NCBI RefSeq assembly: GCF_001294535.1
Contig: NZ_LGIC01000086.1
Location: 1-64,000 of the forward strand
Direction: 5' to 3'
From: Cypionkella psychrotolerans
GTDB lineage: Bacteria; Pseudomonadota; Alphaproteobacteria; Rhodobacterales; Rhodobacteraceae
Length of the DNA: 64,000 bases
A program made the position numbers and the translations under genes. Positions 18,627 through 21,294 of the stretch are shown one piece after another. The notes below the pieces were generated by a model. It was not told where the DNA came from, ran no database searches, and saw only the letters and a list, made by a program, of their open reading frames with translations. Positions within the stretch are counted from its first letter, which is position 1. Each line of letters begins with the position of its first letter.

Positions 18627-19328
18627 TCACTCTTCGTTGTAGCGATAGCCAATGCCATACAGCGTCTCAATCGCCGCGAAGTCATCGTCAACCGAGCGCA
18701 TTTTCTTGCGCAAGCGCTTGATATGGCTGTCGATGGTGCGGTCGTCGACATAGACCTGATCGTCGTAGGCCACATCCATCAACTGATCGCGGCTTTTCAC
18801 GAAACCGGGGCGCTGTGCGAGGGCTTGCAGCAGCATGAACTCGGTCACGGTCAGCGAGACATCGCGGCCTTTCCAAGCCACGGAATGCCGCAGCGGGTCC
18901 ATCCGCAGGTGACCACGTTCCATAATCTTGGTTTCTTCGGTGACGGCAACTTCGCCCGTTGCAATCGCATCGTTGCGGCGCAGCAAGGCCCGGATACGTT
19001 CGACCAACAGCCGCTGGCTGAACGGCTTCTTGACGTAATCGTCAGCCCCCATCCGCAGCCCAAGCACTTCGTCAATCTCATCATCTTTTGAGGTCAGGAA
19101 GATCACTGGCATGGTGGATTTCTGCCGCAGACGCTGCAACAAATCCATGCCATCCATCCGCGGCATTTTGATGTCGAGCACCGCCATATCGGGCATCCGG
19201 CGGTTGAAGGCATCCAACGCAGACTGGCCATCATTGTAGGTTTCGACCTCAAACCCCTCGGCTTCAAGAGTCATAGAAACCGACGTCAGGATGTTCCTGT
19301 CGTCGTCTACAAGGGCGATCCTTGCCAT
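18627..19328 (-). CDS. chvI: Response regulator ChvI (OmpR/PhoB type)
   Basis: A 233-residue DNA-binding response regulator. The receiver domain has the acidic pocket DDD at 8-10, phospho-accepting Asp52 (VLDIKMP) and Lys101 (DDYVKKPF). The winged-helix output domain ends with the recognition helix in [18 protein letters not shown]. It is the first gene of the chvI-chvG-hprK-rapZ-EIIA-HPr operon. The divergent control region towards pckA contains repeated GCTAAC half-sites that are candidates for its own binding, though this is inference. Confidence 0.94.
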
Positions 19329-19406
19329 GTTTGGGCTTCCCTATACTGCTCGGCTTGCCTAATTTGCTTGCCTGATTTTTGACACATATTCCGTTTTCCG
19401 CGCCTC

Positions 19407-19422
19407 GTTAGCAACTGCTAAC
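19407..19422. promoter_or_regulatory. Palindromic operator candidate GTTAGCA-AC-TGCTAAC
   Basis: A perfect 7-bp inverted repeat with a 2-bp spacer, 79 bases upstream of the chvI start. Its half-site GCTAAC recurs in the two direct repeats nearer pckA. It could be a ChvI autoregulatory site or an operator for a LacI-type carbon regulator. Confidence 0.6.
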
Positions 19423-19509
19423 TGCGAATCACCCATGGCTTGAGACTCCATCAGGCGCTAAATTTCCAAATGAATGACTAATATGACGCAGTTTTCCTAT
19501 CGGCTCCAT

Positions 19510-19544
19510 TTTGGTTGCGCTAACCCGAATTTGGTTGCGCTAAC
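19510..19544 (+). promoter_or_regulatory. Tandem direct repeat TTTGGTTGCGCTAAC (two copies, 20-bp period)
   Basis: The 15-base unit occurs at 19510-19524 and 19530-19544, two helical turns apart, so bound proteins would lie on the same face. The unit can also be read as a degenerate palindrome GGTTGC/GCTAAC with a central CG, like LacI-family sites. They lie roughly 40-75 bases upstream of the proposed pckA -10, a usual place for an activator. Confidence 0.65.
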
Positions 19545-19599
19545 TGTGACCTCGCGTCCTATTCCGTGCAAAATCCGTATGTTATAGCAAAGGGACGAG

Positions 19600-19644
19600 A
19601 CCCAAATCTTGGGTTTTCGCAGAAATGCCCAAGCTTTGGGCATT
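19600..19644 (+). promoter_or_regulatory. Two leader hairpins sharing CCCAA-n3-TTGGG, upstream of pckA
   Basis: ACCCAA-ATC-TTGGGT (19600-19614, followed by TTT) and AATGCCCAA-GCT-TTGGGCATT (19624-19644) are perfect inverted repeats with the same core, 27 bases apart, just downstream of the proposed pckA promoter. They may be paired operators for a repressor or RNA hairpins in the leader. The first is followed by a short T-run, so weak attenuation is also possible. Confidence 0.55.
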
Positions 19645-19695
19645 ACGGGTTGGAAACTATACCGCCCTAGCTTGGCGGGAACGGGAGCTTGCAGG

Positions 19696-21294
19696 ATGAC
19701 GAATGGACGCGTGAACCCATCGCAACGGTTGGAAAATCAAGGCATCAGCGGGCTGGGGCGCGTCTATTATAACTATATCGAGCCTGCATTGGTCGAAGCT
19801 GCCGTGGCGCGCGGTGAGGGGAAACTGGGCAAGGGTGGGGCGTTTTTGTGCACCACCGGGCAGTTTACCGGGCGTTCGCCGAAGGATAAATTCGTGGTCC
19901 GCACCGCCGGGGTCGAGGATTCGATCTGGTGGGAAAACAACGCGGCCATGGCGCCCGAGGCGTTTGATCGGCTGTACGCGGATATGTTGGCGCATATGCA
20001 GGGGCGCGAGTATTTCGTGCAGGACCTGTTCGGCGGAGCCGACCCCGTTTACCGTCTGGATGTGCGGATGGTGACGGAACTGGCGTGGCACGGGCTGTTC
20101 ATCCGCCACATGCTGCGTCGCCCTGAGCGGGCGGAGTTGGACGCTTTCGTGCCGGAATGGACAGTGATCAACTGCCCGTCGTTTGAGGCTGATCCTAAGC
20201 TGCATGGCTGCCGGACCTCTACCGTGATCGCGCTGAATTTTGAGCGCAAGATCATCCTGATCGGCGGCACCGCCTATGCGGGCGAGAATAAGAAAGCGGT
20301 GTTCACGCTGCTGAACTATCTGCTGCCAGAAAAAGGCGTGATGCCGATGCATTGCTCGGCCAACCATGCGATCGGCAATCCGGTGGATTCGGCGGTGTTC
20401 TTTGGGCTTTCGGGCACGGGCAAGACCACGCTTTCGGCCGACCCGTCGCGGATTCTGATCGGCGATGATGAGCACGGCTGGTCGGATCGCGGCACCTTCA
20501 ACTTTGAGGGCGGCTGCTATGCCAAAACGATCAACCTGTCGGCGGAAGCCGAGCCGGAAATTTACGGCACGACTTCGAAGTTTGGCACCGTGGTCGAGAA
20601 TATGGTGTTCGATCCCGAAACGCTGGAGTTGGATTTCACCGACAGCAGCCTGACCGAGAACATGCGCTGCGCTTATCCGTTGGAGTACATCTCGAACGCG
20701 TCGGAAACCGGGATGGGCGGGCATCCGAAGAATGTGATCATGCTGACCTGCGATGCTTATGGGGTGCTGCCGCCGATCGCCCGGCTGACCCCGGCGCAGG
20801 CGATGTATCACTTCCTGTCCGGCTTCACCTCGAAAACGCCGGGGACGGAGCGCGGGATTGTCGAGCCGACGCCGACGTTCTCGACCTGCTTTGGCGCACC
20901 CTTCATGCCGCGCCGGCCGGAGGTGTATGGCAAGCTGTTGCAGGCGAAGATTGCGAAGTTTGGCGCATCGTGCTGGCTGGTGAATACCGGCTGGACCGGG
21001 GGCAAATTTGGCGAGGGCAAGCGGATGCCGATCAAGGCGACGCGGGCTTTGTTGACGGCGGCGCTGGATGGTTCGCTTTCGGCCGGGGAGTTCCGCCGCG
21101 ATCCGAACTTTGGCTTTGAGGTTCCCGTTTCTGTGCCGGGGGTCGATGCGACCCTGCTGGACCCGCGCGCGACTTGGAGCGACAAGGCGGCTTATGATGC
21201 GCAGGCGCAGAAATTGGTGGGCATGTTCGCCGATAATTTCGCGCAGTATGTGCCGTTCATTGATGCTGACGTGAAAGCAGCGGCGATTGGCTGA
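19696..21294 (+). CDS. pckA: Phosphoenolpyruvate carboxykinase (ATP)
   Basis: The enzyme converts oxaloacetate and ATP to phosphoenolpyruvate, the entry to gluconeogenesis during growth on organic acids. The 532-residue protein has the oxaloacetate/phosphate region, P-loop GLSGTGKTT (237-245), the metal-binding GDDEHGW (256-262), and the C-terminal adenine-site regions of the ATP-dependent family (not the GTP type). ATG 19696 is preferred over an upstream in-frame ATG at 19609 that would add a tail encoded by the leader hairpins. It is divergent from chvI, an arrangement shared with other alphaproteobacteria in which ChvG/ChvI affects pckA. Confidence 0.96.

Follow-up and report, generated by a model that had tools for sequence, protein, structure and literature searches.

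The repeats between chvI and pckA in Cypionkella psychrotolerans: a predicted tandem CceR operator, a hairpin-bearing pckA leader and an unconserved palindrome

Gluconeogenesis is entered through PEP carboxykinase, and in the stretch of Cypionkella psychrotolerans (Rhodobacteraceae) DNA analysed here (the window, 64,000 nucleotides) the gene of this enzyme, pckA, lies divergent from a chvI-like response regulator gene, with a gap of 367 bp between them. This gap is rich in repeats, which raises the question of whether they form one switch that reads both genes, as a first-pass annotation had proposed, or whether they serve different ends. The calls of chvI and pckA made in that annotation are borne out by the open reading frames and by NCBIfam (Table 1), and a ChvG-like kinase gene lies 3' of chvI; neither protein reached an equivalog cut-off, and the names ChvI and ChvG are given by nearest similarity and synteny. 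As described below, the repeats are three different things, namely a tandem operator, an unconserved palindrome and a set of leader hairpins. The explanation that we favour, and hold as a whole to be probable, is that the gap consists of two back-to-back promoters, with a tandem operator for the LacI-family regulator CceR (GapR) at pckA, a hairpin-bearing leader on the pckA message and a chance palindrome on the chvI side.

Table 1. Genes, putative promoters, predicted sites and leader elements of the chvI–pckA locus (positions in the window)
Feature	Position	Strand	Basis or remark
chvI-like response regulator gene	18627..19328	-	ORF; OmpR/PhoB-type response regulator by NCBIfam; divergent from pckA
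Putative chvI promoter	19386..19414	-	-35 TTGCTA 19414-19409, -10 GAATAT 19391-19386; deduced from conserved columns
Palindrome of the first-pass annotation, GTTAGCAACTGCTAAC	19407..19422	.	unconserved; judged a lineage-specific coincidence
Conserved GAATCA	19426..19431	.	upstream of the putative chvI -35; CGAATCA in 60 of 76 gaps
CceR site 1 (predicted), TTTGGTTGCGCTAACCC	19510..19526	+	conservation in the family alignment; variant of GTTAGCGCTAAC
CceR site 2 (predicted), TTTGGTTGCGCTAACTG	19530..19546	+	20 bp downstream of site 1; highest conservation in the gap
Putative pckA core promoter, GTCCTATTC + ATGTTATAG	19556..19587	+	conserved columns; -10 approximately TTATAG, 19582-19587
Leader hairpin H1, ACCCAA-atc-TTGGGT	19600..19614	+	two-sided changes keep pairing in the genus; weak family enrichment
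Leader hairpin H2, AATGCCCAA-gct-TTGGGCATT	19624..19644	+	loop UUGGCCC in many relatives
Leader hairpin H3, CCGCC-ctagctt-GGCGG	19662..19678	+	ends 18 nt before the ATG; missed in the first-pass annotation
pckA ribosome-binding site, GGGAG	19683..19687	+	GGGAGC/AGGAGC before the ATG conserved
pckA, PEP carboxykinase (ATP)	19696..21294 (ATG 19696)	+	NCBIfam TIGR00224 and NF006822 above cut-off

All of the repeats that the first-pass annotation had named were found in the sequence where it had placed them, including the perfect palindrome GTTAGCA-AC-TGCTAAC on the chvI side and the identical 15-bp direct repeats TTTGGTTGCGCTAAC on the pckA side (19510-19524 and 19530-19544; period 20 bp). To judge their standing against chance, bases 19407-19644 (238 in all) were put through 2000 dinucleotide shuffles. 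No direct repeat longer than 12 arose in any of them, which places the 15-bp direct repeat far outside chance, while 11% of the shuffles had one or more perfect inverted repeats with arms of at least 7, so that the GTTAGCA palindrome is weak evidence on its own. Inverted repeats with arms of at least 9 were rare, as in the 9-bp hairpin, and occurred in fewer than 1% of the shuffles.

For the comparison with relatives, 80 pckA loci were taken from genomes of other species, and 76 gaps in which a chvI homologue is divergent to pckA were retained from the family set and aligned, the window's own included; the palindrome was checked in 15 gaps at the genus level, and the leader hairpin counts given below use 96 gaps. 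Three records titled Exiguobacterium profundum (L010), Enemella evansiae (L042) and Nocardioides marinus (L043) carry a chvI–pckA locus of the Rhodobacteraceae type, and these look mislabelled or contaminated.

In the family alignment that the first-pass annotation had called for, the two 15-bp repeats before pckA proved to be conserved, and the pair of GGTTGCGCTAA sites forms the strongest block of all 76 gaps, followed by the two elements assigned to the pckA core promoter. The geometry is likewise fixed: the GCGCTAA cores are spaced by 20 in 40 gaps and by 21 in 15, and in 40 of the 76 ATGNTA stands at exactly 43 nt from where the second core starts. When the tandem pattern was searched for in 120 family genomes (one per genus), it was found at 49 places in 47 genomes, as against none for the reversed control, and within the window's own genome it matches at pckA only. 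At two Paracoccus loci, pckA has no detectable chvI neighbour and the tandem sites are still present, which argues that these sites serve pckA.

The identity of the factor is suggested by the company that the motif keeps. The pckA repeats resemble a CG-centred palindrome, TGTTAGCGCTAACA, and in the same genome GTTAGCGCTAAC, with one mismatch allowed, is found 15-166 nt upstream of edd, zwf, a xylulokinase gene, a fructokinase gene, two GAPDH genes and sucC, and also in the region where the coding sequence of a GntR-like LacI gene starts. Degenerate palindromes are not above the control genome-wide (91, as against 352 for the reversed control), and the coherent gene set is seen among the best palindrome matches only. 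In the Rhodobacteraceae, GapR/CceR has been described as controlling zwf, edd, gapA, gapB, scrK and pckA, and often itself, through a 20-bp palindrome, with pckA a predicted target (PMC4052901). Because the gene set that bears the palindrome is the published GapR/CceR set, the pckA repeats are read as CceR sites. The GntR-like LacI gene (L112/L177; contig C86 near 158.2 kb) is the candidate for CceR by resemblance and conservation, and its NCBIfam GntR-like assignment is below cut-off; homologues with 71-93% identity were found in four out of six further genomes, namely R. capsulatus, HIMB11 and two genus mates. The genome thus holds a LacI-family GntR-like regulator that is conserved in the family, an even, CG-centred palindromic motif that precedes central-carbon genes, and matching sites upstream of pckA that are conserved in the family and depart from the consensus in their left half. 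It is in this form, with motif regulon, regulator gene and conservation all agreeing with CceR/GapR, that the earlier suggestion of a LacI-type central-carbon regulator acting on the pckA-side GCTAAC repeats is upheld.

The pckA repeats are a fresh instance of an operator kind that is already known, and the sequence predicts that CceR would bind them. The sites fit the consensus in their right half only (left half GGTT, as against GTTA), which points to sites that are weaker or special, and the tandem form seems particular to pckA. With a pckA transcription start that probably lies near 19594, judging from the conserved promoter columns, the centres of the two sites, 20 bp apart, would lie about 76 and 56 bp before it, a placing that suits an activator. 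Both the binding of CceR here and the activation of pckA would follow from this position taken together with the literature. In Paracoccus, proteomics of a cceR deletion found PckA down and glycolytic enzymes up (PMC11323563), and 6-phosphogluconate has been reported as the signal sensed by CceR (PMC5507952). If this published behaviour holds here, CceR would be bound when 6-phosphogluconate is low, as in gluconeogenic growth, and bound CceR would turn pckA on and sugar-catabolic genes off, while sugar use would release it.

On the chvI side, the GCTAAC half-site is common to the palindrome and the pckA repeats, and it was on this likeness that the first-pass annotation had based a single factor, ChvI or a LacI-type central-carbon regulator, reading both genes and coupling envelope stress to carbon flow. 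The exact palindrome is found in one of the 76 family gaps, the window itself, and is lost even inside the genus, where only the window and one mate (L087) among 15 gaps carry it. A scan of the window's own genome for GTTAGC-n4-GCTAAC, as had been recommended, gave no further site at up to one mismatch. As a CceR site the palindrome is ill suited, with a spacer of 4 as opposed to 0 in the CG-centred consensus, and the Paracoccus sites stay with pckA where chvI is not its detectable neighbour. Conservation, spacing and the Paracoccus loci all speak against a shared GCTAAC switch for both genes, which is therefore rejected, and we regard one factor working through this half-site as improbable. 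In most relatives, the place of the palindrome is taken by GAATCAA, which lies over the putative -35 of chvI (TTGATT on the chvI strand in most, with a GATAAT-like -10 about 17 nt further on), and the palindrome would be a chance product of drift over this -35 region.

Control of both genes by ChvI itself is a separate matter. The Brucella orthologue of ChvI, BvrR, binds upstream of bvrR and of pckA (PMC9491525), and induction of ExoS-ChvI through JspA raises the activity of a pckA reporter in S. meliloti (PMC10659215); on this evidence joint ChvI control is real in relatives. Given that BvrR occupies both promoters in Brucella, ChvI may act on both genes here too, and the repeats named in the first-pass annotation give no argument for it.

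Two further conserved elements lie in this part of the gap. Many relatives carry two GAATCA copies 18 bp apart (19408-19431; of the 76 gaps, 60 have CGAATCA and 39 have GAATCAA), of which the window retains the one listed in Table 1. GAATCA contains GANTC, the CcrM methylation site. The CenR motif TGA-N8-TGA (PMC9275681) was considered for this pair and does not match the 18-bp spacing. Between the two promoters, at 19475-19487, there is a further conserved block, which reads TGGCTAAnTTGCC in relatives and TGACTAATATGAC here.

Downstream of the pckA promoter, the two CCCAA-n3-TTGGG repeats had been ascribed to a separate repressor or to leader control. Their place beyond the conserved -10 box makes it probable that they are transcribed. 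As two similar palindromes 27 bp apart, directly downstream of the promoter, they could be taken for a twin operator at which a separate repressor binds; against this, CCCAA-n3-TTGGG is found in no family gap other than the window's own (1/76) and once only in the nearest relative. Because the pairing survives with different letters, the repeats are taken to act as RNA and not as an operator. An operator, whose sequence would be retained in relatives, is rejected, and we give the repressor reading almost no weight. The other half of the earlier suggestion, that something separate and possibly a leader control sits at these repeats, is sustained by conserved hairpin positions and pairing downstream of the putative promoter.

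The first 100 nt or so of the pckA message would form a leader that holds H1, H2 and H3, with H3 adjoining the ribosome-binding site. Perfect hairpins ending at -20 to -16 of the pckA ATG, the place of H3, were found in 43 of 96 gaps, compared with none on the chvI side and about 4 in shuffles, and hairpins ending at -62 to -42 in 43 of 96 leaders, compared with 14 in shuffles. For hairpins ending at -95 to -75 (H1), the count of 21 against 14 is inside the shuffle range, and H1 is the weakest part since it is not enriched across the family. When 11 genus leaders were aligned, pairing was kept through two-sided changes at 10 of the 18 pairs of H1-H3, a number reached in none of 500 shuffles, with a covariation score of 0.298 as opposed to 0.193 for shuffled and 0.069-0.156 for slid structures; these pair-change counts are inflated by related sequences, and relatedness is incompletely controlled. 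By this measure the leader has the mark of a conserved structured RNA. UGGCCC stands in a hairpin loop in 20 of 96 leaders, where 0.5 would be expected in shuffled ones, while the stems vary freely. As a conserved arrangement the leader hairpins are real.

Several more specific forms of leader control were considered. A hidden or freed ribosome-binding site was rejected, as its exposure does not differ from that in shuffled leaders. A transcription attenuator was rejected too: on the pckA strand the leader showed no terminator hairpin followed by a T run, and the only terminator-like site found is on the minus strand. The folding energy of the leader as a whole is unexceptional (mean z -0.45, as in a control stretch), so that the claim for an RNA rests on hairpin positions, loop and pairing, and no Rfam family matches the region of the window or nine relatives (covariance models, gathering threshold). 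A covariance model of the UGGCCC-loop hairpin, for whose seed one loop base was trimmed from two rows to hold the stems in register, gave mostly one match per genome tested, and the hairpin as a genome-wide element was set aside. Its best match is the pckA leader in genus mates and several relatives, and lies elsewhere in L155, L162 and L163. The one in L162, near 1501, is a terminator-like hairpin away from pckA, CGCCGCCCC-CTTGGCC-CGGGGCGGCG followed by TTTCG. A kissing contact between the H1 and H2 loops is conceivable, as by eye GGCC is self-complementary and the window's two loops (AAAUCUU and AAGCUUU) are complementary save one base. A leader reading frame at 19625-19699 (ATG 19625; 24 residues) ends over the pckA ATG; it is intact only in the window and its two closest relatives, L085 and L086, and by eye its ATG is absent in other genus mates.

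What the hairpins do can be read in two ways. They may be generic stabilisers of a GC-rich 5' end with no regulatory partner, a reading to which we give nearly even chances, and one with which the ordinary mean folding energy, the unaffected exposure of the ribosome-binding site, the lack of an Rfam family and the variation of stems and loops between subgroups are consistent. It accounts less well for the UGGCCC loop, retained in one large subgroup despite changing stems, and for H3, which keeps to one exact place. More tentatively, the Rhodobacteraceae pckA leader could be an undescribed cis-regulatory RNA, whose UUGGCCC loop would be read by a small RNA or a protein or make a loop-loop contact; if so, it would add a post-transcriptional layer to the control of gluconeogenesis by CceR. 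Within the explanation favoured here, of a CceR operator followed by a hairpin-bearing leader, the leader would most likely affect message stability or the start of translation, perhaps with the involvement of a partner that reads the H2 loop.

The operator part of this account is known biology, and it ties the pckA locus to a known global carbon switch, while the tempting link between envelope stress and carbon through a common half-site is removed as false. The leader is the sole element that is possibly new, as an indication of a leader RNA in the Rhodobacteraceae, a bacterial family that is both large and of ecological importance.

Among described systems, the structured 5' leaders collected in Rfam likewise have hairpins of conserved position and pairing before a ribosome-binding site; the pckA leader differs from them in matching no family and in showing no switch, terminator or hidden ribosome-binding site. 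The BvrR/ChvI system at the divergent bvrR-pckA locus of Brucella and rhizobia has the same gene order, and both genes are targets there, whereas the shared GCTAAC half-site here marks no ChvI site. PckR of the Rhizobiales is, like CceR, a LacI-family dual regulator with pckA among its targets, and has been published as non-orthologous to CceR/GapR and as having a different motif (PMC4052901). The closest counterpart is CceR/GapR itself (LacI family; R. sphaeroides RSP_1663), which has the same targets (zwf, edd, the gap genes, fructokinase, pckA and often itself), even-length CG-centred palindromic sites and a regulator gene away from its targets, and from which the locus described here differs in that its pckA sites are two asymmetric copies in tandem.
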